64,000 nucleotides of DNA from Bacteroidota bacterium (GTDB taxonomy: Bacteria > Bacteroidota > Bacteroidia > Bacteroidales > JAAUTT01). Position numbers and translations under genes: made by a program. Shown piece by piece: positions 2,775 through 40,399 of this stretch. The first letter of the stretch is position 1. Every line of letters begins with the position of its first letter. The notes beneath the pieces were generated by a model. The model saw nothing but the letters and a program-made list of their open reading frames with translations, did no database searches and was not told the DNA's origin. The stretch lies in assembly GCA_020048915.1 (NCBI GenBank), contig JAIFLU010000017.1:1-64000 (forward strand), written 5' to 3'.

Positions 2775-3914
2775 TTACAATTTAAAAGAAGTAAACAACA
2801 AATAAATAATTGCTAATAACAAAACAGCAAAACCAAAAGTTTGATTAGAAGCGTCAGATATAAGTGCCATAATCATTGGCATTAATGCCCCACCAGCAAT
2901 ACCCATCACCATTAAACCTGAAACTTCGTTGGCACGTTCGGGCAATCTTTTTAGAGCAACTGAAAATATAATTGAAAACACATTTGCTATTAATAAACCA
3001 ACAATGAATATTAAAGCAAATAACATCCACAATTGCGAAACAAAAAGCATAATTATAAAAAGAGGTATGAGAGCAACCATGCTATACATAAAGAATTTTT
3101 TTGCAGATAATTTTACCAATAACAACGCCCCAACAAATGATCCAACAGTACGTGCAATAAAATACAAACTAATACCCCAACTCGCATCTTCAAGCGAAAT
3201 AGAACATTTCTCCATTAAAAATTTAGGGATACTGGTATTTAGGCCAACATCAATACCAACCACAAAAACAATTCCGATAAAAAGTAAAAGAATTAATTTA
3301 TCTTGTAACAGTTTAAAACAACCAGCAAATGAAGTTGTAGATTGTGATACCTTTTCTTTTTCAATGGGAGTAAGAAAAAGCCAAAGCGCAGATAAAATAG
3401 TAACTATGGCATAAACGGGAAAAATTAATTTCCATGAACCATAATGCAAAGAGGCATAAGCAGCAATAATAGGACCTAAGAAAGCTGCAATTGCTTTTAC
3501 AAATTGACCAAATGTAATACTACTTGCTAATCTATCGCCACTTACAACATTAGATAATAATGGATTTAAAGCAACCTGAATAATAGTATTACCAATGCCC
3601 AATAAAGAGAAAGCAACAAGAATAGCTACAAAAGAATACGAAATAAATGGTAACAACATAGCGAGTAAAGAAACGAACATACTTAATAGAACAGTATTTT
3701 TACGACCCATTTTATTCATTAGCAAACCCGTTGGCACAGAAAGAATTGCAAACCATAAAAAGAGCATCATGGGCAACAAATTTGAAATACTGTCGGTAAG
3801 TGAAAAATCTTTCTTCACATAATTGGTGGCAATGCCAACCAAATCGACAAAACCCATGATGAAAAACCCAAATAAAACTGGAAGTAAAGCTACATTGCTC
3901 GTTTTCTTTTGCAT
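2775..3914 (-). CDS. MFS sugar permease, FHS (FucP/GlcP-like) type
   Basis: The 379-residue protein is almost entirely hydrophobic with about 12 predicted membrane segments, as in the FHS branch of the major facilitator superfamily, which imports fucose, glucose/galactose or related sugars with protons. Visible marks are the N-terminal LPVLFGFFIMGFVDLVG, the loop GLLMNKMGRKNTVL, the helix GIGNTIIQVALNPLL and a central charged loop near residue 190 (EKEKVSQ). It is slightly shorter than typical FHS members (about 400-430). It is the last intact gene of the minus-strand array, so it would bring a released monosaccharide across the inner membrane. The sugar cannot be read from sequence. Confidence 0.85.
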   Translation of the reverse strand: MQKKTSNVALLPVLFGFFIMGFVDLVGIATNYVKKDFSLTDSISNLLPMMLFLWFAILSVPTGLLMNKMGRKNTVLLSMFVSLLAMLLPFISYSFVAILVAFSLLGIGNTIIQVALNPLLSNVVSGDRLASSITFGQFVKAIAAFLGPIIAAYASLHYGSWKLIFPVYAIVTILSALWLFLTPIEKEKVSQSTTSFAGCFKLLQDKLILLLFIGIVFVVGIDVGLNTSIPKFLMEKCSISLEDASWGISLYFIARTVGSFVGALLLVKLSAKKFFMYSMVALIPLFIIMLFVSQLWMLFALIFIVGLLIANVFSIIFSVALKRLPERANEVSGLMVMGIAGGALMPMIMALISDASNQTFGFAVLLLAIIYLLFTSFKL

Positions 3915-30100: not shown

Positions 30101-31417
30101 TTATAAACTGAACAGTTTCCCTGACTCAGAAAATATCCCTTTCGTATTTTTAATCTTTGCACTAAAAATATACATCCCCGAACTTCCGGCTTCGCCTGCT
30201 TTTTTTGGGTCCCAGGTTAGTTTCACCCGCCCTGGGACCAGGGTTCTTTGAATTAATACATGTGCATCTTTACCTCTGGTGTCCACAATTTTAATTTCTA
30301 CCTCCGATTGCTCGGTTAGGGTCAAATCAAAAAATATTTCCCTATTCGAAGGATTCGGGTAAACCACTAACGAGTGAGAACCCGATGAAATATTCTCATT
30401 ACCTGTTTGGAGATTTGAAGGACGAACCGATGTAGTCTTTATACTGTAAGGGTGGCTTACAGCAATTTTCTCGCCCCATGTGGAATTAGCCCATGTTCCG
30501 TATTTGCCGCTCGAATTCGATACAACTGAATGACAATCGCTCCATTTCCAAACCCAGGCAAGATAGCCTATGTCATTTTTATAAGCTTTTTCAATCAGGT
30601 ATTCCCAATTGATCGCAGATGTCGGGCACTTATCGCAATTTTCGCAGGGTCCAAATTCACCCACTATGAAACATATGTTTTTTTCAACTGCTTTATTGAT
30701 AATTCGTTCGATTTCAGAAATGGTGCCCGTTCCCCAGGTTTTGGGATCCCAAAGGTGCCATGAGAATATCAGGTTGTGGTCGGGATCCTGATCCAGGAGA
30801 TATTGCCCGTTATCCAGCACTGCGTCGGCATTTCGGCCATATTGGTCGGCATCAATTATCAAAGGAGTATGGATATTAGCGGTTCGCATCTGTTTAACAA
30901 TGTCAGCATATTTTTCTTTGAAAATTGCATCGCCCATGGCTTTGTCACCAGGTTCATTGGCAATATTTACCAAAAGATTTTTCTCGTACTTTTTCAGAAT
31001 AGCCGAAATAACTGGCGAACACCAATAATCAACACAAGTCGGTAATTGGTCCCATTTTCCGGTAGCATCCCAAAGGCAAATAATAGGAATCATTTTGTAT
31101 TTGATGCAGTTGGATAACACCAGGTCTAAATCCGCTGGCTGAGGGGTTGGATAGGCCAGGTTCCAGAAAATACGGCAAGTGTTGGCTCCTGTCTTTTCCA
31201 TTTCAGGAAAATTAACATTTCCATGAATGTCCCAATACACTATCATTGCATTAAAGCCTTTCAGGATAACCCTTTCCCCGGAATTGGTATACAAATATCG
31301 GCCATCTACATACATTCCTGGCTTCTGGGCATATGTTTGACCATTAAAAAGCAAAACGGCTATGCTTACCATGATATGGAACAAGTGTTTGCGTTTTTCA
31401 AAACAATTGGGTTTCAT
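30101..31417 (-). CDS. GH5 family endo-glycanase with type IX secretion sorting domain
   Basis: The 438-residue protein has a signal peptide (ending TYAQ, about 31) and a GH5-type TIM barrel (about 35-320). The acid/base is Glu155 in NIANEPG and the nucleophile Glu254 in IVGEFGP; ILKGFNAM and LAWVWKW support a mannanase-like GH5. A cysteine-rich loop (GPCENCDKCP) follows the nucleophile. The C-terminus from about 350 is a Por/T9SS sorting domain (VVYPNPSNREIFFDL, GMYIFSAKI), so the enzyme is exported through the outer membrane. It is the only T9SS cargo seen here. Mannan is the likely substrate but is not proven. Confidence 0.78.
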   Translation of the reverse strand: MKPNCFEKRKHLFHIMVSIAVLLFNGQTYAQKPGMYVDGRYLYTNSGERVILKGFNAMIVYWDIHGNVNFPEMEKTGANTCRIFWNLAYPTPQPADLDLVLSNCIKYKMIPIICLWDATGKWDQLPTCVDYWCSPVISAILKKYEKNLLVNIANEPGDKAMGDAIFKEKYADIVKQMRTANIHTPLIIDADQYGRNADAVLDNGQYLLDQDPDHNLIFSWHLWDPKTWGTGTISEIERIINKAVEKNICFIVGEFGPCENCDKCPTSAINWEYLIEKAYKNDIGYLAWVWKWSDCHSVVSNSSGKYGTWANSTWGEKIAVSHPYSIKTTSVRPSNLQTGNENISSGSHSLVVYPNPSNREIFFDLTLTEQSEVEIKIVDTRGKDAHVLIQRTLVPGRVKLTWDPKKAGEAGSSGMYIFSAKIKNTKGIFSESGKLFSL

Positions 31418-31418
31418 A

Positions 31419-32855
31419 CTACTTGATTATTAGTTTTTCAGTATTCTGCTGACGTATTTTTGCCTCTTCGGTGGTAGTAAGCCTTTTACCCATGTAGGTT
31501 AAATTTTCTATGGTAACACCTGATACGTTTTTCTGCTTGTCGAACCCGTGGAAAACCGAAAAGGGCATTAATCCTCCCACCACATGAATATCTTTGAACA
31601 CAATGTTGCTTACCTTTCCACGGAAGGTGCTGTGATACGCTTCTTTTCCGGCAGGGGGTTTCTGAACGCCATCCCAGGCTCCATGCAGGTAGTTCTTTTT
31701 AATGAACTCGGGATCGCGGATTCCGTCTGGTCCCCATTGGGAATAGAATATGGCCACATCGAAAAGCTTCTGGCGGGAATCTTCCACCCGGATATTTTCG
31801 AAAACCACATTATGAACATGCGCCTGCCCGGCATTATGTATGCTTATGGTGGCGCCGTCTTCCACATGGATAATATCAATGTTTTCGAATCGGATATTTT
31901 TTACCTCGTTGGAATAGAGTTCGAAGCCTATTTCGATGGCATTTCCCCAAATGGAATTCCAGAACACACAGTTTTTAACTAAAATGTTATCGGTTGGATG
32001 ATCGGCAGGGTAGTTGCCACCCGATTTTATGGCGACGCAATCGTCCTTGGTGTGGGCAAATACTCCATCAACCACCACATTGGTGCACCGGAAGATATCC
32101 AGGCCGTCGTCGTTGGCACTTTCGCTCACAATCCGGATTCCGTTTATTTCGGCCTTGTTGCAGTGAAAAAGGGCGACCTGCCAGGTGGTGCCATTATGAA
32201 GAACGATGTCGTTGATGGCGATATTCTCACAATTTTCGAGGTGAATAAAGCGGTTTTTGTTACCTTCTGTGGTTTTGTTGAACGATCCGTCCAGAATTCC
32301 GCGACCAAGAATTTTGATGTTTTTCTTTCCTTCAGCAAAAATGTAACCCTGAACCACGGCACCGCCCTCAATGTAAACCGTTTGATTGTCCTTCAACTCC
32401 AGCTTCACATCTTTATAGAGCTTGCCGCCTTCGAACCAGACTACATTTTTATCTGATTTCGATGGCTTCTCCTTTTCAGGATTTCCGGAGAAGATAAACA
32501 AAGGCTGCTGACGAATACGCCCGTTCAGCTCCAGGCTGATGTTTTCGGGCCTATTCATGGTAAATTTGAAAGAATTATCGTCAGTATACTCAGGCTTCAG
32601 TGCCGATTTCAGGGGACGGATGTCGACCCAGCGAACATCGTACATGGTGTTCACTTCTAAGGTTACTTGCCCGGTAAAGTCGAAAACTGCATAAGAGGCG
32701 ATGGGTGTGTCGTAAACCGGAACTTTCACACCATTAACCTTTACTGAGTAGTATTTATTGGATGCAAACCCTTCGGGTCCCTGCCAGGTGGTAACCTGAG
32801 CGGTTACATTGATAGCATAAAAAAGGATTGAAATAAATAAAAGTTTTTTCATCAT
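31419..32855 (-). CDS. Beta-helix glycosidase, GH28-like with N-terminal beta domain (copy 1)
   Basis: The 478-residue secreted protein (signal peptide ending VTAQ, about 20) has an N-terminal beta-sandwich (about 21-135) and a right-handed beta-helix. Paired aspartates occur at the GH28 catalytic positions (SANDDGLDI and HTKDDCVAIKSG), with GNAIEIGFE following. The canonical GHG and RIK are not clear, so GH28-like or GH49-like is safer than polygalacturonase. It is paralogous to the protein at 42000-43340, and a third copy is represented only by the scar at 29969. Its stop lies one base after the GH5 start, so the two are coupled. Confidence 0.7.
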   Translation of the reverse strand: MMKKLLFISILFYAINVTAQVTTWQGPEGFASNKYYSVKVNGVKVPVYDTPIASYAVFDFTGQVTLEVNTMYDVRWVDIRPLKSALKPEYTDDNSFKFTMNRPENISLELNGRIRQQPLFIFSGNPEKEKPSKSDKNVVWFEGGKLYKDVKLELKDNQTVYIEGGAVVQGYIFAEGKKNIKILGRGILDGSFNKTTEGNKNRFIHLENCENIAINDIVLHNGTTWQVALFHCNKAEINGIRIVSESANDDGLDIFRCTNVVVDGVFAHTKDDCVAIKSGGNYPADHPTDNILVKNCVFWNSIWGNAIEIGFELYSNEVKNIRFENIDIIHVEDGATISIHNAGQAHVHNVVFENIRVEDSRQKLFDVAIFYSQWGPDGIRDPEFIKKNYLHGAWDGVQKPPAGKEAYHSTFRGKVSNIVFKDIHVVGGLMPFSVFHGFDKQKNVSGVTIENLTYMGKRLTTTEEAKIRQQNTEKLIIK

Positions 32856-32947: not shown

Positions 32948-34093
32948 TTAAATATTCTTTAACCCACACACTTCGTTTATTACTATTGCTGCTCCTCTTT
33001 CAGCCAATCTGAAAAACACCTCATCGGAAGTAAAAAAATTTCCGTTCTCATCTTTTGCTTTGAAGGAAAGGGATGCCAGAATGGCTTCCTTAATCAGGGT
33101 GTAAGGCATTCCAAGCCTCTGTGCAGCGTGTATAGGAGCGACTAAACGATCGTTGGGGCCAAGTTTTCGGAAGAGATCGCAGCCGACGCGGAAAATGGTA
33201 TCGCCCAACGCGCGGTTTTGAAAACGGATAAGCAGATCGTCGATATGACTGGTTAACTGCTCTTGGGTAAATTCCCCGGGATAAAGAGCCATGAGTATTT
33301 CGGCCGATTGCAGCATGGTATTCCGGGTTTGGGTGTACACCTCTGTGTGTGCTAATACCTCGTACAGGTAAACTGCCTGCGGATATTTCCTGAAACCAAT
33401 ATACGCTGCAGTGGCGTGTCCTAAATTGTGGATAAACAATTTCCGGTCGACCCAGGCTTTCATATTTTCCCTGGGTGCCAGGCCTTCCACTTGGGGAATT
33501 GGGTTTTTAAACCCTTTTTTATCGAGGATGAGCGTATTGTATGGTTCGGCATAAACCACCAATGGGTCGCTGGCCGAAACCGCTCCCGCCATAATAGGAA
33601 CCATTTTACCAATGCTGGTTTCCACCAACCCCACCATTTGGGTTAAAGGAAACTCTGCGGGCAGAAGTTTTGATAATTCACCAGCAATGTATTCCCGGGC
33701 ATTGCGCATGTTTTCAGCAATAATTATGTCGAGCGGCCACAAACCTTGATTTTTGAACCGTATTTGCAGCGCACCGGAAATTAATGGCAGAACAGAAGGT
33801 AATCCCTGTTGCCCAACCGAAACGGAAGCAATGGAAGCCGTGGCCAGTTCTTTTATCACCTCCTGCTCATTTTGAAGCAAAATACCACGCACATTCTCTA
33901 TTTCCAGAACATCATCGCCTGCTTCACTCTTAATCACTACCATATATTTCCTGGTTTTGTTGAGCTGATTAACGATAGAAGCACTTATATCGACAAAAAC
34001 CACCTCGTAACCTCCACGGCTGAAAAGCTGACCAATAAAAGAACGTCCTATTTTTCCGGCACCAAAAAGTACCATTTTTTTTAAAGAAGTCAT
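32948..34093 (-). CDS. MtlD-family polyol-phosphate dehydrogenase (mannitol-1-phosphate 5-dehydrogenase-like)
   Basis: The 381-residue cytoplasmic protein has the usual length of MtlD. The NAD-binding motif GAGKIGRSF is at 11-19, and the catalytic block KLFIHNLGHA is at 218-227, with the Lys, Asn and His of the polyol-specific long-chain dehydrogenases. It would interconvert fructose-6-phosphate and mannitol-1-phosphate; a UxuB-like hexuronate role is a less likely alternative. Its ATG overlaps the stop of the PfkB kinase by four bases, so the two are coupled. No signal peptide is present, unlike nearly all neighbours. Confidence 0.78.
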   Translation of the reverse strand: MTSLKKMVLFGAGKIGRSFIGQLFSRGGYEVVFVDISASIVNQLNKTRKYMVVIKSEAGDDVLEIENVRGILLQNEQEVIKELATASIASVSVGQQGLPSVLPLISGALQIRFKNQGLWPLDIIIAENMRNAREYIAGELSKLLPAEFPLTQMVGLVETSIGKMVPIMAGAVSASDPLVVYAEPYNTLILDKKGFKNPIPQVEGLAPRENMKAWVDRKLFIHNLGHATAAYIGFRKYPQAVYLYEVLAHTEVYTQTRNTMLQSAEILMALYPGEFTQEQLTSHIDDLLIRFQNRALGDTIFRVGCDLFRKLGPNDRLVAPIHAAQRLGMPYTLIKEAILASLSFKAKDENGNFFTSDEVFFRLAERGAAIVINEVCGLKNI

Positions 34094-35289
34094 AGCCCTA
34101 TTTGTTTGAGGTATTGTTGGCGGTATGGTTCAATAAGCGCTTTTTTTTCGCCGGCAGTTTTTTCAAACCATGTACCCCCCAGATAAAAGCATGTAAATCC
34201 ACCCGAGGCAACGCCCCAGGATATGGCATCGACCATATCAAATTCTCCCTCTGTACGCGAATTAAACTCACTTGCAACCGATGCTATAATTCCGCCTGTA
34301 AAATTATCGCCACACCCAGTTGTATCGCCTTTTCCGGAAGGGTTGATCCGCAATTGCTGCATCACCTCGCACGAAACCGGAAAGCTGCGAATATTCATAG
34401 GCTTGAAAAACGAACCGTTCGAATATGCTACCAGGTTTTGACTTCCGTTGGTAATGATGAATGAAGAAACACCACTCAATTCGAAATAAGCAGCCGCATC
34501 GTTTATGGTTGAAGTGCCACTGATTTTAAGTGCTTCTTCGCAATCCATCGTGAGTATATCAATTAACCGATAGCTTTGGACATTGTTTACCAAAGGCCAC
34601 TTTTGGTTAGGGCGTTCCTTCTCATTCCTGAAATCGAACACTGTATTAACCATCGTAAAGGCGTTGGCAGCTTTGGCTTTTTTGAGCAACATGGCTAAGT
34701 TATCGTGGATTTGCGGCACCAATGCTGTTCCACCAAAACAAACCAGATCGGCTTGAAAAAAAGAGGGTGGCAACATATCGGGATGATAGTTCCACGATGC
34801 TCCAATATTATTTATAAAAGTGCGTTCGCCATATCCACCATCAAAATCAGGATCGGACAGCACATGGGTGAAGGCAGTATTGCGGCCGGGCAAGGCAACA
34901 TAATTATCGAAATTAAGCGGGGTTTTTGCAACCTTTTCACGGATTACCGCCGAAGTATTGTCGTTTCCGGTACAACCGTAAAAGTTTACCTGGTATTGCT
35001 GCTGCGGCAGCATTTGGGCAGCATGAATAAGTGATACAAGTGAAGGCCCGCCCAAATTAACGCTGTCGAAATTTTTATTACCAACCAGTTCGCTGAGCAA
35101 ATCGAAATAAGGCTTTTGTGCAAATGTTTCCAATTCGCTGGTAAATACGAGTTTTCCGGGACTTAAGCCACCGTCGCCTGTTTTTAAGGAGAGGTATTTC
35201 CGAAAACCCGGTGCATTAAAATCGACTCTGGAATAGAGAAAATCGGCTAACGCACAACCTGTTCCTGCAATGTTTATTTTACGGCTCAT
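34090..35289 (-). CDS. PfkB-family sugar kinase
   Basis: The 399-residue cytoplasmic kinase has the PfkB signature GKGDTTGCGDNFTGG (about 319-333) with the catalytic base Asp328. NLGGPSLVSLIHAA and PGRNTAFTHV lie in the sugar-binding region. It is longer than the usual 300-330 residues owing to an extended N-terminal third. Placed between a mannose/lyxose isomerase and an MtlD-type dehydrogenase, it is most simply a fructokinase that makes fructose-6-phosphate. The gap to the isomerase is six bases. The phosphorylated carbon and sugar are inferred from context, not from motif. Confidence 0.78.
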   Translation of the reverse strand: MSRKINIAGTGCALADFLYSRVDFNAPGFRKYLSLKTGDGGLSPGKLVFTSELETFAQKPYFDLLSELVGNKNFDSVNLGGPSLVSLIHAAQMLPQQQYQVNFYGCTGNDNTSAVIREKVAKTPLNFDNYVALPGRNTAFTHVLSDPDFDGGYGERTFINNIGASWNYHPDMLPPSFFQADLVCFGGTALVPQIHDNLAMLLKKAKAANAFTMVNTVFDFRNEKERPNQKWPLVNNVQSYRLIDILTMDCEEALKISGTSTINDAAAYFELSGVSSFIITNGSQNLVAYSNGSFFKPMNIRSFPVSCEVMQQLRINPSGKGDTTGCGDNFTGGIIASVASEFNSRTEGEFDMVDAISWGVASGGFTCFYLGGTWFEKTAGEKKALIEPYRQQYLKQIGL

Positions 35290-35295
35290 GCTGAG

Positions 35296-35970
35296 TTATA
35301 AATATTTTATGTAATCGGAAACCAGCAAATGAACAGGAGGTTCGTCTTCGGTAATTTCAGGGAAGCGTCCTATAGGTTCGTAGAAACAGTTATCGGAGGT
35401 ATCGTCGTTAACGGCACTTACTTCTCCAACAAACACTTTCCCTTTCCCGGCCTCGCCAAAAAACCTGTGAAAAACTCCCTGTTCCAGGCAAATACTTTCG
35501 CCTGGGGTAAGAACCACCTTACCGCCAGGTTGAACGGAACGGAGTATGCCATCAGTTCGCAATGTAACAGGTTTGTCAGAAAAGCGGTCGTTGCCTGCTG
35601 AATTGTAGAGCTCTATTACAAGGTTGCCGCCACCCCGGTTGATAATGTCTTCCATTTTGTTCCAATGAAAGTGCATGGGAGTTTCCTGCATCTCCTCAAC
35701 AATCATAGCCTTTTCGGCATATGGCTTTTTGTTGTGGCCAAACTTACCATTGCGAATGGTAAACAGGATGAGCCCACGTTCGTGAAACCGTCCACTTCCA
35801 AAATCGGTAAGGTCCCAACCCAGCATGTTATCAGCTATTTCACCGCAGATTCCACCCTTACCTTTCCAGTCTTCGGGTTTCCAAAAAGCCCAGGGTGGAA
35901 GTTTAAAATTCATAGAATCGAAAAAGGCAATTGATTCGGCAATTAATTGATTTATTTGACTTCTTTTCAT
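35296..35970 (-). CDS. D-lyxose/D-mannose isomerase (cupin)
   Basis: The 224-residue cytoplasmic protein matches the small cupin D-lyxose ketol-isomerases in length. The metal site is visible as PMHFHWNKMEDI (His100, His102, Glu107) and VFHRF (His168). Such enzymes use Mn2+ and convert lyxose to xylulose and mannose to fructose. The neighbouring beta-mannosidase (25 bases upstream) and PfkB kinase argue for mannose as the natural substrate in this setting. No signal peptide. The family call is strong; substrate choice is inferred. Confidence 0.82.
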   Translation of the reverse strand: MKRSQINQLIAESIAFFDSMNFKLPPWAFWKPEDWKGKGGICGEIADNMLGWDLTDFGSGRFHERGLILFTIRNGKFGHNKKPYAEKAMIVEEMQETPMHFHWNKMEDIINRGGGNLVIELYNSAGNDRFSDKPVTLRTDGILRSVQPGGKVVLTPGESICLEQGVFHRFFGEAGKGKVFVGEVSAVNDDTSDNCFYEPIGRFPEITEDEPPVHLLVSDYIKYL

Positions 35971-35994
35971 AATTTGTTAATTATAACAACCTTA

Positions 35995-38547
35995 CTAGTA
36001 ACTATCTATTAATGTTATTGCCTTAATTTCGCCTTCCAGCTCGCCCGCATAGCTGATGGTGTAAGTTTTACCTGGCAGCATATCGAAAAAATTATTGCTG
36101 AAACGGCCTTCGGAAGTTGAGCTTAAGGCTACATTCTTAACCAGTGTGTTTGAAACTAGTGTGATTTTAAATTCTTTGCTGCCTGTTTTTTCAACAGTTT
36201 TAACAATTTCAGGCTTTTCCAACGATAAAGCTTTGATTTCACGGAAATAAAAAAGGTTTTCGGCCACTACATTCTGGCCTTTTTTAACCTTCACTTCCAG
36301 TACCATTTTGGTTGGGTTTCCTTTGGCTGCAAGTTCTTTTTCGGGAACCGACAAGTAAACCTGACTGGTATTTGCGGCCAAAACGATTTTTTTGTTTTGT
36401 TGCCAAAGTTTTTTTCCGCTGAAATCGTATAGAGTGGCTTCCAGTTGATGTTCTTCGGCTTCCAGTTTATCGTTGGCGATGGCTATTTTAATATCTGCGC
36501 CATCCCTGAAAATAACGGGCAGTACTGGTTTAAAAGCTTCGCGTACAAAGTAATGCAATGCCTTCCACCGGCCCAAATAATCAACACTGGACCACGACAT
36601 GGTAGGCCAGCAATCGTTTATCTGCCAGTAGAGCGAACCCATGCAATGTGGCATTTGCCGGCGGTGTGCTTCGATGGCAAACTTTACACCCTCCGCTTGC
36701 ATTACCTGGCTCAGGTAAACAAACGATTCAAAATCTCTGGCAGGTTTATAGTAGCGTTTTATATAGGTGTTTATCATTTCGTTACCGTTAAAGCCCGGAG
36801 CAATCCAAGGCATAAGGCTGCGCTGGCGGTGTTCCATAATAGGAGAACGGTATGCCTTATCGCTGTCGCTGGCAAAGGCATTTATGGTTTTCATTTCGGG
36901 GAACGATTGCAGCCCGTATTCGCTGATGAAGCGCGCTGTATTTTCTGCATAGGTTGAAAAAGGCACATCGCCAAACCAAATGCGCCAGTCGTGCTCATCG
37001 CCCGATGAAGGGTTTGAAAGCGTGTTGTTTTCGCCTTGTGGCGACGAAGGCCAGTAGGTTATTTCGGGATGATTTTCTTTAACCACCTCGGGCAGGATGG
37101 TGTAAAATATTTTTTTATAAACATTCCAGAGCGTGTCGGCCTGACCGGGTTTAACCTTAGCCGGCCATCCCCAGTCGTTCCAGGCTCGTAAATTTTCGTT
37201 GTTGCCACACCAGAGGGCTATGGAAGCGTGATTGCGCAACCGTTTTACGTTGTATTCGGCTTCTTTGCGGATATTTTCGAGATGCAAAGAGTCGTCGGGC
37301 TGCATATTACAGGCAAACATAAAATCGTTCCAGGCAAGTATGCCTTTTTCGTCGAACAAGTCGTACAGCTCATTACCTTCGTAGATAGCACCACCCCAAA
37401 CACGGATCATGTTCATATTGGCATCCACGGCATCCTGTACCACGCATTTATAGTTATCGAGGGTGTTGCGTGTTGTAAAAATATCGGATGGGATGTAATT
37501 GGCCCCTTTCATAAATACAGGTACGCCGTTAACCTTAAAGGTGAATGAAGTACCGGTGGAATCTTTTCCACGGGACAGTTCCAGTGTACGAACCCCAAGG
37601 CGGTGCGACAGGGTTTGCAGGGTTTTATTGCCTTTTACGAGCCGTAGCTCCAACTGATATAGTTTTTGGCTGCCAAGTCCGTTTGGCCACCACAGTTCAG
37701 GTTTGTCCATGGTAAATTCGATACCGGAGTTGTGGATTCCCGGTTGAAGCTCTATTTTTTGAGAGGCCATTTTTTTGTTATCCACCCACACTTCAAGACC
37801 TGCATCGAGGTTACCGGTGGCCTCAACTGCAGCAGAAACCCGGTATGTGGCCTTTTCGGAAGAAACATTCAGCGGTTTTATGTAGAGGTCGTTCATTTTA
37901 GCTTCATTCCAGGCCACTATCTTCGCAGGTTTCCAAACCCCGCAGGTTACCAGTCTCGGACCCCAGTCCCAGCCATAATGAAACGGTGCTTTGCGGGTAA
38001 ACACGTTGGTACGCTCGTTTTCCGGGGCTATTTCATTGGCGGCCATAATCAGGTAAGGCACCTTCTTAAGTTTTTCCATGCCCACTTTTACAGCAGAGTG
38101 GAAATAAATGCGCAAGGTGTTTTCGCCTTTCTTCATGAATTTTTTAGCTTCGACGTTCCACCCCAGAAACATGTTATCGGCTTTTAATACCAGCGAATCG
38201 TTCAGATAAACATCAGCGTAGGTATCGAGGCCATCAAACACAAGATCGATGTTAGGATAAGAAGCTATTTCGCCGGAGAGATTAAACCGGGTAGAATATT
38301 CCCAGTCGGCATTCTCGATCCATTTTACTGCTTGTTCATTTTTCCGGTAAAACGGGTCGGGGATTTTTTTGCTGGCGAGCAAATCGGTATGCACGCAACC
38401 GGGAACTTTAGCCGGCAGCCAGGCTGTATCACCGGCTTTGCGGAACTGCCAGGGCGAGTTTATTACTTCCGTAAATACCTGTTGTTTGGAAGCGCAACTA
38501 CACAAAATAATTAAAGTGATGCATATCAGGAGGATGTGTTTTTTCAT
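35995..38547 (-). CDS. GH2 beta-mannosidase, lipoprotein
   Basis: The 850-residue protein has a lipoprotein signal (IILCSC, Cys18). It then shows a jellyroll (about 28-215) with KAPFHYGWDWGPRLV, which is characteristic of beta-mannosidases, an Ig domain and a TIM barrel (about 335-680). The acid/base is Glu451 (WCGNNEN) and the nucleophile Glu543 (FISEYGLQSFP). Two C-terminal beta domains follow. It would release mannose from beta-mannosides at the outer membrane or periplasm. It is the first gene of a four-gene unit that continues with mannose-processing enzymes and has a good promoter 120-150 bases upstream. Confidence 0.9.
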   Translation of the reverse strand: MKKHILLICITLIILCSCASKQQVFTEVINSPWQFRKAGDTAWLPAKVPGCVHTDLLASKKIPDPFYRKNEQAVKWIENADWEYSTRFNLSGEIASYPNIDLVFDGLDTYADVYLNDSLVLKADNMFLGWNVEAKKFMKKGENTLRIYFHSAVKVGMEKLKKVPYLIMAANEIAPENERTNVFTRKAPFHYGWDWGPRLVTCGVWKPAKIVAWNEAKMNDLYIKPLNVSSEKATYRVSAAVEATGNLDAGLEVWVDNKKMASQKIELQPGIHNSGIEFTMDKPELWWPNGLGSQKLYQLELRLVKGNKTLQTLSHRLGVRTLELSRGKDSTGTSFTFKVNGVPVFMKGANYIPSDIFTTRNTLDNYKCVVQDAVDANMNMIRVWGGAIYEGNELYDLFDEKGILAWNDFMFACNMQPDDSLHLENIRKEAEYNVKRLRNHASIALWCGNNENLRAWNDWGWPAKVKPGQADTLWNVYKKIFYTILPEVVKENHPEITYWPSSPQGENNTLSNPSSGDEHDWRIWFGDVPFSTYAENTARFISEYGLQSFPEMKTINAFASDSDKAYRSPIMEHRQRSLMPWIAPGFNGNEMINTYIKRYYKPARDFESFVYLSQVMQAEGVKFAIEAHRRQMPHCMGSLYWQINDCWPTMSWSSVDYLGRWKALHYFVREAFKPVLPVIFRDGADIKIAIANDKLEAEEHQLEATLYDFSGKKLWQQNKKIVLAANTSQVYLSVPEKELAAKGNPTKMVLEVKVKKGQNVVAENLFYFREIKALSLEKPEIVKTVEKTGSKEFKITLVSNTLVKNVALSSTSEGRFSNNFFDMLPGKTYTISYAGELEGEIKAITLIDSY

Positions 38548-38666: not shown

Positions 38667-38697
38667 CAAATGTATTTTTATCGTGCATCACTGACAA
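38667..38697 (-). promoter_or_regulatory. Bacteroidota-type promoter of the mannosidase unit
   Basis: On the minus strand TTG (38697-38695) is followed after exactly 20 bases by TACATTTG (38674-38667), a full match to the TTG-N19-21-TAnnTTTG consensus. The ATG of the beta-mannosidase lies about 120 bases downstream, leaving an untranslated leader of roughly 110 bases. It is the only such match I found in the larger spacers of the array. Confidence 0.6.
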
Positions 38698-38746
38698 TAT
38701 ACATTTTGGTGTTTCCTTTATACATTCTGATCATGTCCTTTAATTT

Positions 38747-40399
38747 CTAATTGAAATTCACCAGGATTGTGTTGGAGTTTCCGTTTCCGCTGAAAACAGC
38801 GTACTTCGACTGGTTTACCTGGTCGACCGACACCTTAACATTTTTGCCGTTGATGGTAGCAGAAGCCGATTTCGCTTTATCAGGGAAAGGTACCCGCATG
38901 GTAAAGCGCTCGAATTTGCCACTGGTCTTAATCTCAACCCTGTTGTTCCGGAACGCATACTCGTAGCTCACCTGGTTGCCGTCGCTGCCGTAGCCCACAT
39001 CTACCTTGGTTTTTTCAACTCCTGCAAAATACCACCGCGGTGATATTTCCACTTCTTTGAACAGATTGCTTTTATCCACCACTCCGGCAAGTCCTTCCAC
39101 CAAGGCACTTACAAAAGCTGCCTGACCCCATTCGTCGGGAATAGCTTCTTCCTGGGCGGTGCCATCGGCGTTTACACAGCCCGGCACTTTGCGGTTGTTC
39201 TTTTTCATTATCTCTTCCAGTAGCCTGAACTGTTCAATCCCAAAGCGTTCAAAACCATTCTGAAGGGCAGCCTTGGCCAGCTCTCCGCCCACTAACGGCA
39301 AAATAGCGCCATTCATGTATTCTCCAACTTTGTAGTTTCCAAAATGGGGCGGGATGAATGGGTAAATTCCGTACCAGGGCGCTAGCGATTCGCTTTTTGT
39401 TTTTTCGCCGATCTCCTGGTAGGTTTTGATGATGGAAGCGGCCATTTCGCGGGTAGGTGCTCCACGATTGATGGAGTAGGTATTGGATAAGCCAATTGAC
39501 TGAATAGGATCAGTTTGAATATGAGAGGGAACAGGTTCTTCAGGAATAAAATGTGCGTAATGTTTTCCGTTCCAGCACAATGTATTTAGCCGGTGGCGGA
39601 ATAAATCGCCTTGTATATCCCATTCTTTGGCAGCATTAGCTTCTCCAATTGCACTATATAATTCGGATAGTATTTTACTGGCCATAAACATACCGCTGTT
39701 ATCGCCATGCATAATGCCCTTTGGCGTTTTATCGGTGTTGTCGATATGCCCTAAAAGCCGGTCAACGCCAGTGAGACTGTCGTGCTGCGATGTGAAATCC
39801 CAGGTATCGATGGTATAAGGACGTTTTACCAGCAGGTTTTTGCCCGACCACCGCAGGGGATCATTCATCAGGTACTTCATCCCTTTTACCAGCGTTGGCA
39901 ACCATTTTTTCACATATTCAGCATCGCCGGTAGCCTGCCAGTTGGTATACACCCCTTCAACCAACAGGTATTCGAGATCGGCTTCCATAGGCATGCGGAA
40001 GAAAAAATTTTGCTGGTTTACATCCACAAAATAAAACTGGCGGTCGAAGCAGTTGGTAAAGAACATCTGGCCCACGTTCTTATCTTTGTACGATTCCCAA
40101 TAATCGAAATACATTCCCTTATCGGTCTGGTGTTCCATAAAAAAAGCAATGTAGCTCGCAAGGTCTTTTTCCCAGTATTTGTAAGCTTTTGTGGTATGAA
40201 TATGATCGCGCACCCAGGTTACAAACATCAGCCGTTCTTTACCGTCGAGGGTTACTTTTTGTACACGGTTACTGGCATAAAGATTCTTTTTAAGATCGTT
40301 TAGCAGCGAGGCATAGAGGCCAGCCTCGGCAGAGAATTCGGTCTGGGCTGAAATTCTTATAAAGAGAAAGAGCAGGACTATGGTAATTCTGGTTTTCAT
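38747..40399 (-). CDS. Six-hairpin glycosidase (GH15/GH63-like fold)
   Basis: The 550-residue secreted protein (signal peptide ending ISAQ, about 19) is an (alpha/alpha)6 barrel from end to end with a small C-terminal beta domain. Marks are MFVTWVRDH (58-66), KRPYTIDTWDF (192-202), MHGDNSGMF, YSINRGAP, YMNGAILPLVGGELAKA and SALVEGLAGV. It shares these with the larger protein at 17206-19767 but lacks that protein's N-terminal domain and 200-residue insert. WVRD is reminiscent of GH15-like enzymes. The substrate is unknown. It ends 50 bases before the promoter of the mannosidase unit. Confidence 0.6.
   Translation of the reverse strand: MKTRITIVLLFLFIRISAQTEFSAEAGLYASLLNDLKKNLYASNRVQKVTLDGKERLMFVTWVRDHIHTTKAYKYWEKDLASYIAFFMEHQTDKGMYFDYWESYKDKNVGQMFFTNCFDRQFYFVDVNQQNFFFRMPMEADLEYLLVEGVYTNWQATGDAEYVKKWLPTLVKGMKYLMNDPLRWSGKNLLVKRPYTIDTWDFTSQHDSLTGVDRLLGHIDNTDKTPKGIMHGDNSGMFMASKILSELYSAIGEANAAKEWDIQGDLFRHRLNTLCWNGKHYAHFIPEEPVPSHIQTDPIQSIGLSNTYSINRGAPTREMAASIIKTYQEIGEKTKSESLAPWYGIYPFIPPHFGNYKVGEYMNGAILPLVGGELAKAALQNGFERFGIEQFRLLEEIMKKNNRKVPGCVNADGTAQEEAIPDEWGQAAFVSALVEGLAGVVDKSNLFKEVEISPRWYFAGVEKTKVDVGYGSDGNQVSYEYAFRNNRVEIKTSGKFERFTMRVPFPDKAKSASATINGKNVKVSVDQVNQSKYAVFSGNGNSNTILVNFN

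Follow-up and report, generated by a model that had tools for sequence, protein, structure and literature searches.

A Conserved Isomerase-PfkB Kinase-MtlD Module in Bacteroidales, Probably Directed to Mannose and Linked in the Window to Mannan-Degrading Genes

In Bacteroidales, a genuine module is made up of the genes for an isomerase of the D-lyxose/D-mannose family, a PfkB-superfamily kinase and an MtlD-like dehydrogenase; their clustering is far beyond chance. In the window, i.e., the whole stretch of 64,000 nucleotides that was analysed, the trio follows a GH2 beta-mannosidase gene. On balance we lean, by a little, toward a side-branch for mannan or mannosides within a plant-polysaccharide degradation cluster, in which mannose passes via fructose to fructose-6-phosphate, with an MtlD branch to mannitol-1-phosphate. 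In this scheme a mannanase and the beta-mannosidase would release mannose outside the cytoplasm; inside the cell the Lyx_isomer enzyme would turn it into fructose, and the 399-aa PfkB kinase would phosphorylate fructose at C6. The fructose-6-phosphate would go to glycolysis or, alternatively, be reduced by MtlD and NADH to mannitol-1-phosphate, which may serve as an electron sink or supply mannitol or a compatible solute. One point against the mechanism is that neither the isomerase nor the kinase nor the dehydrogenase reaches an NCBIfam equivalog cut-off.

The original prediction described four minus-strand genes, in the order beta-mannosidase-isomerase-kinase-MtlD, the first two intergenic gaps being 24 and 6 bases and the last pair of genes overlapping by 4 bases. 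The ORF coordinates reproduce these positions exactly, and the domain searches confirm the four families (Table 1).

Table 1. Features of the window discussed in the text.
Feature	Position	Strand	Evidence and remarks
GH2 beta-mannosidase (BtMan2A-type), predicted lipoprotein	35995..38547	minus	850 aa ORF; GH2/mannosidase-Ig domains
D-lyxose/D-mannose ketol-isomerase family (cupin, Lyx_isomer)	35296..35970	minus	224 aa ORF; PF07385 E=1.3e-96
PfkB-superfamily kinase, distinct ~400-aa subfamily	34090..35289	minus	399 aa ORF; PF00294 E=5.2e-18
MtlD-like NAD(H) dehydrogenase	32948..34093	minus	381 aa ORF; PF01232 1e-29 and PF08125 1.9e-20
GH28-family protein between MtlD and mannanase	31419..32855	minus	PF00295 E=3.4e-19; gaps of 92 and 1 base; outside the conserved trio
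GH5 endo-beta-mannanase, C-terminal secretion tail	30101..31417	minus	best matches mostly solved beta-mannanases (3jug 3.1e-28)
Bacteroidetes-type promoter-like site (ATTG, 20 bases, TACATTTG)	38667..38698	minus	consensus match only

A survey of 295 genomes from this order gave 9 with the isomerase, 7 with the kinase subfamily, 12 with MtlD and 6 with all three; in 6/6 of the latter the genes are adjacent and in the same order. The hypergeometric p of co-occurrence, a statistic that ignores shared ancestry, ranges from 2e-11 to 8e-10. Intact or near-intact, the trio is present in eight loci (the window, L021, L023, L024, L063, L064, L066 and L067) from several families of the order, L063 and L067 being cut by contig ends. 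In the first four relatives the identity to the window is 47–51% for the kinase, 53–59% for MtlD and 57–69% for the isomerase, hence the gene order has been kept despite deep divergence. Quick trees of the trio genes are broadly compatible and weakly resolved. Partial sets also occur: the window's own genome carries a second isomerase-kinase pair without MtlD that does not lie among glycosidase genes (L022, G000:C283, 6190-8082), and L065 contains the kinase and MtlD without the isomerase. The window's assembly consists of 317 contigs with 92% completeness, so absences from it are weak evidence. The four-gene unit proposed originally therefore survives in part: the trio is kept in eight loci, whereas the beta-mannosidase stands beside it in the window only (1/8). 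The conserved unit is isomerase-kinase-MtlD, and the glycosidases are locus-specific additions.

The GH2 protein is similar over its full length (residues 28-829) to the solved beta-mannosidase 2je8 of the B. thetaiotaomicron BtMan2A type (E=3.6e-208) and would free mannose from mannan oligosaccharides. It had been called a surface enzyme. Its N-terminus is indeed lipoprotein-like (LIILCSC-ASKQ) but, judged from the sequence and general knowledge, lacks an acidic surface-export motif. The GH5 mannanase, encoded on the same strand two genes downstream of MtlD, has a Por_Secre_tail match (5.1e-5) under the cut-off and likely belongs to the same degradation programme. The beta-mannosidase and the nearby mannanase are shared with mannan degradation as known in Bacteroidetes, whereas the attached isomerase-kinase-MtlD trio is a difference. 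All four genes are embedded in a long minus-strand run that consists mostly of glycosidases or related genes (two GH92, an alpha-L-fucosidase, rhamnosidases, GH28, GH43, GH3 and others). Thus they are no free-standing, isolated unit, and the cluster is not mannan-specific; the two GH92 genes were counted in favour of the mannose reading.

The promoter-like site is the sole minus-strand match to its consensus in 25000-47500, out of 8 matches in the whole window, and sits in the 199-base gap upstream of the beta-mannosidase gene. A transcript start at the beta-mannosidase would fit this consensus match. A sigma-70 scan of the sequence gave match numbers at shuffle level. Directly upstream of the beta-mannosidase (window 38747-40399) a secreted-looking protein of 550 aa is encoded that has no Pfam or NCBIfam match. 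A sugar MFS transporter (window 2775-3914), kin to glucose/galactose and fucose permeases, shares 38% identity with a transporter encoded close to the L067 trio and is a candidate importer of the freed sugar.

The isomerase matches PF07385 over positions 1-222 of 222 with 322.5 bits (cut-off 20.8), recovers the solved relative 3kmh/3mpb at 3e-62, and is 47% identical to LmuI of E. coli O157, which places it with the LmuI-type isomerases. On the NCBIfam equivalog NF051472 (D-lyxose/D-mannose isomerase) it scores 272.4 bits vs. a cut-off of 350. Its His-His-Glu-His set, H100, H102, E107 and H168, is invariant in 16 aligned rows, and we take these residues to correspond to the metal ligands of the E. 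coli isomerase. The enzyme would convert mannose to fructose. The choice of mannose draws on the neighbours. G441, a genome from a different family with only 3 mannosidase-type GH2 matches, has an isomerase gene that lacks the kinase and comes immediately after a GH2 beta-mannosidase gene whose product is 40% identical to that of the window (L097). This second beta-mannosidase/isomerase pair and the beta-mannanase two genes downstream of the trio in the window together make mannose the likeliest substrate. A GH38-type gene follows the trio in L021, its best NCBIfam match being a mannosylglycerate hydrolase, below the cut-off. On a Loktanella plasmid (L104, 4728-7934) the isomerase gene has a 'trehalase family glycosidase' gene on one side and a glycerate kinase gene on the other, neighbours that would be compatible with the breakdown of mannosylglycerate. 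Taken together, the L097 pair, the GH38-type gene and the Loktanella arrangement favour mannose over lyxose.

A pentose version of the pathway is rather unlikely in our estimate. The isomerase substrate would then be D-lyxose or some other aldopentose, the kinase would form xylulose-5-phosphate, the MtlD-like enzyme would interconvert this with a pentitol phosphate, and the mannosidase would be incidental. Such a version draws on the fact that 7/8 trio loci are missing the beta-mannosidase and that the kinase and the dehydrogenase fall under all curated mannitol and fructokinase cut-offs. It has to contend with beta-mannosidase/isomerase pairs at two separate loci, with mannan-degrading genes nearby, and with the MtlD family, which normally acts on hexitol phosphates. 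The isomerase family does act on lyxose, and E. coli requires lmuI for growth on this sugar, but lyxose is rare in nature (PMC10128022).

The mannose route has a precedent. The lmuKAIZYX genes (OI167) of E. coli O157:H7 serve lyxose/mannose utilisation: LmuI forms fructose from mannose, LmuK acts as a fructose kinase, and the genes support the growth of a manA mutant on mannose when the regulator is overexpressed, manA masking lmu in E. coli (PMC10128022). It follows from this work that an isomerase-first bypass of ManA is already known, so the path from mannose to fructose and on to a phosphate through an isomerase and a PfkB kinase is not new. The E. coli relative also adds to the second beta-mannosidase/isomerase pair and the nearby mannanase in upholding the mannose orientation of the module. 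As for the predicted bypass of hexokinase and mannose-6-phosphate isomerase, its E. coli counterpart is established, but the window's genome additionally encodes a type I phosphomannose isomerase (PF20511 profile) and ROK sugar kinases. A PF01238 probe missed the former gene in this genome because PF01238 models the C-terminal part only. The cell can thus probably use the ordinary mannose route as well, which makes the trio route an addition rather than a replacement; a pathway standing in for a missing ManA was rejected on account of the same genes.

The lmu loci read here (L105 and, on a Citrobacter plasmid, L103) share with the window the same isomerase family clustered with a PfkB-superfamily kinase, and hence a way from mannose via fructose to a sugar phosphate without ManA. 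They differ in that the window kinase is of another PfkB lineage (25% over 137 aa to LmuK) and in that the window has MtlD and glycosidase genes but no aldolase, ABC transporter or two-component system; no aldolase was found among the neighbouring ORFs. Three Bacteroidota loci (L025, L098 and L099) likewise have this isomerase family and a PfkB-superfamily kinase; theirs, unlike that of the window, is of LmuK type (41% identical to LmuK in L098) and is accompanied by a class II aldolase, without MtlD. All five loci with an LmuK-type kinase (L025, L098, L099, L103 and L105) contain the class II aldolase and none contains MtlD, whereas in the flanks examined the loci with the 399-aa kinase have MtlD in all cases but L022, and aldolase in none. 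An aldolase next to an LmuK-type kinase fits a product that is cleaved, and MtlD next to the 399-aa kinase fits one reducible by MtlD, which suggests fructose-6-phosphate.

This argument is one from gene partners. The kinase matches PF00294 with 65.9 bits (cut-off 25.8) and has the C-terminal catalytic motif GDTTG.GDN, in which D322-T-T-G-x-G-D328 is invariant in 10 aligned rows. Its subfamily is sharply set apart by score in the 295 genomes of the order (members >470 bits, all others <35 bits), and a collection scan gave one further relative only. All NCBIfam matches are far under the cut-off, including the curated fructokinase equivalog NF006957 (22.2 bits vs. 450), and the solved relatives, nearest first by profile, are adenosine kinases, YdjH and then fructokinases. 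The kinase is therefore unassignable as a fructokinase by sequence, which weakens the original prediction. A structure predicted from a two-sequence alignment has a mean pLDDT of 48.9, too low to support a fold comparison. We infer both substrate and C6 position for the reaction that the data suggest, fructose to fructose-6-phosphate. It is quite unlikely that the kinase instead makes, as in E. coli, fructose-1-phosphate, which would here go to an unlinked aldolase, with MtlD acting separately on fructose-6-phosphate. The kinase does stand beside the isomerase, the same position as LmuK in the E. coli cluster; against this are its distance from LmuK, the true LmuK relatives that sit with an aldolase in the same order, and the kinase-MtlD linkage in nine loci with no aldolase within the flanks examined.

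In the MtlD-like protein both Mannitol_dh domains exceed their cut-offs (104.4 and 73.6 bits for PF01232 and PF08125), and the MtlD structure 3h2z is recovered at E=6e-45. Alignment with 3h2z reveals the catalytic Lys and His of the RKxFxxNxGH motif and the GAGxIG nucleotide loop; K218, G225, H226, G11-A-G13 and I15-G16 are invariant in 15 aligned rows. The protein nevertheless falls under every curated mannitol-1-phosphate 5-dehydrogenase cut-off (best 219.9 bits vs. 356), which weakens the original reading. Fructose-6-phosphate and mannitol-1-phosphate are its presumed substrates, with the direction likewise presumed. Related genomes (L023 and L094-L096) have HAD phosphatase genes following MtlD, one of which resembles, under cut-offs, the hexitol phosphatase HxpB and the phosphatase part of bifunctional MtlD. 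These phosphatases favour mannitol formation, from fructose-6-phosphate via mannitol-1-phosphate, as in Acinetobacter (PMC6291793), with which the trio shares the first step and, possibly through the adjacent HAD genes of relatives, the phosphatase. The window differs from bifunctional MtlD in having separate genes and no HAD phosphatase beside MtlD (NF046057 32.5 bits vs. a cut-off of 800); no mannitol PTS component is adjacent to the trio. Also quite unlikely is an oxidative MtlD, by which mannose and mannitol (or its phosphate) would both be carbon sources meeting at fructose-6-phosphate: MtlD reactions are reversible and the neighbourhood is catabolic, but no transporter or kinase giving mannitol-1-phosphate is linked, and the HAD phosphatases of relatives point the other way.

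An MtlD paralog in the window's genome (C222) sits with a different isomerase, an FGGY kinase and an aldolase, hence the substrates of MtlD-like proteins here may include other ketose phosphates. This run (L060, G000:C222, 1997-7787) comprises an aldolase, a sulfoquinovose-isomerase-like protein (below the cut-off), the FGGY kinase, a DUF4432-like epimerase and the MtlD paralog. The latter is truncated by the end of its contig, with an apparent continuation in L100 (G000:C242, 2-685); where the two pieces overlap they differ at 2 residues, pointing to strain variation or a further paralog. In L093, L094, L095, L096 and L023, MtlD is found near a fused PDH-like E1 of about 820 aa, joined in three loci by E2; the conserved cluster also has HAD phosphatases, an aldo-keto reductase, a RhaD-type aldolase/dehydrogenase and a GntR-like regulator.

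In general, these data suggest that the trio is a form of the E. coli isomerase-first mannose route in which a different PfkB lineage and MtlD take the place of the LmuK-type kinase and aldolase. No description of an isomerase with PfkB and mannitol, or of a lyxose isomerase with mannitol-1-phosphate, was found in the open-licence literature searched. A more specific proposal, that an undescribed PfkB subfamily feeds fructose-6-phosphate to a dedicated MtlD and so directs part of the mannan carbon to mannitol, as electron sink or solute, in Bacteroidales, is possible though doubtful. Labelling these genes as lyxose or mannitol utilisation genes on the strength of their names would be unsafe. 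The kinase marks a PfkB subfamily for which fructose 6-kinase activity is a prediction. If the mannose reading is true, the isomerase-first route of E. coli would have an independent Bacteroidales form, in which the kinase is of a different lineage, a polyol branch is added and some loci tie the route to mannan degradation.
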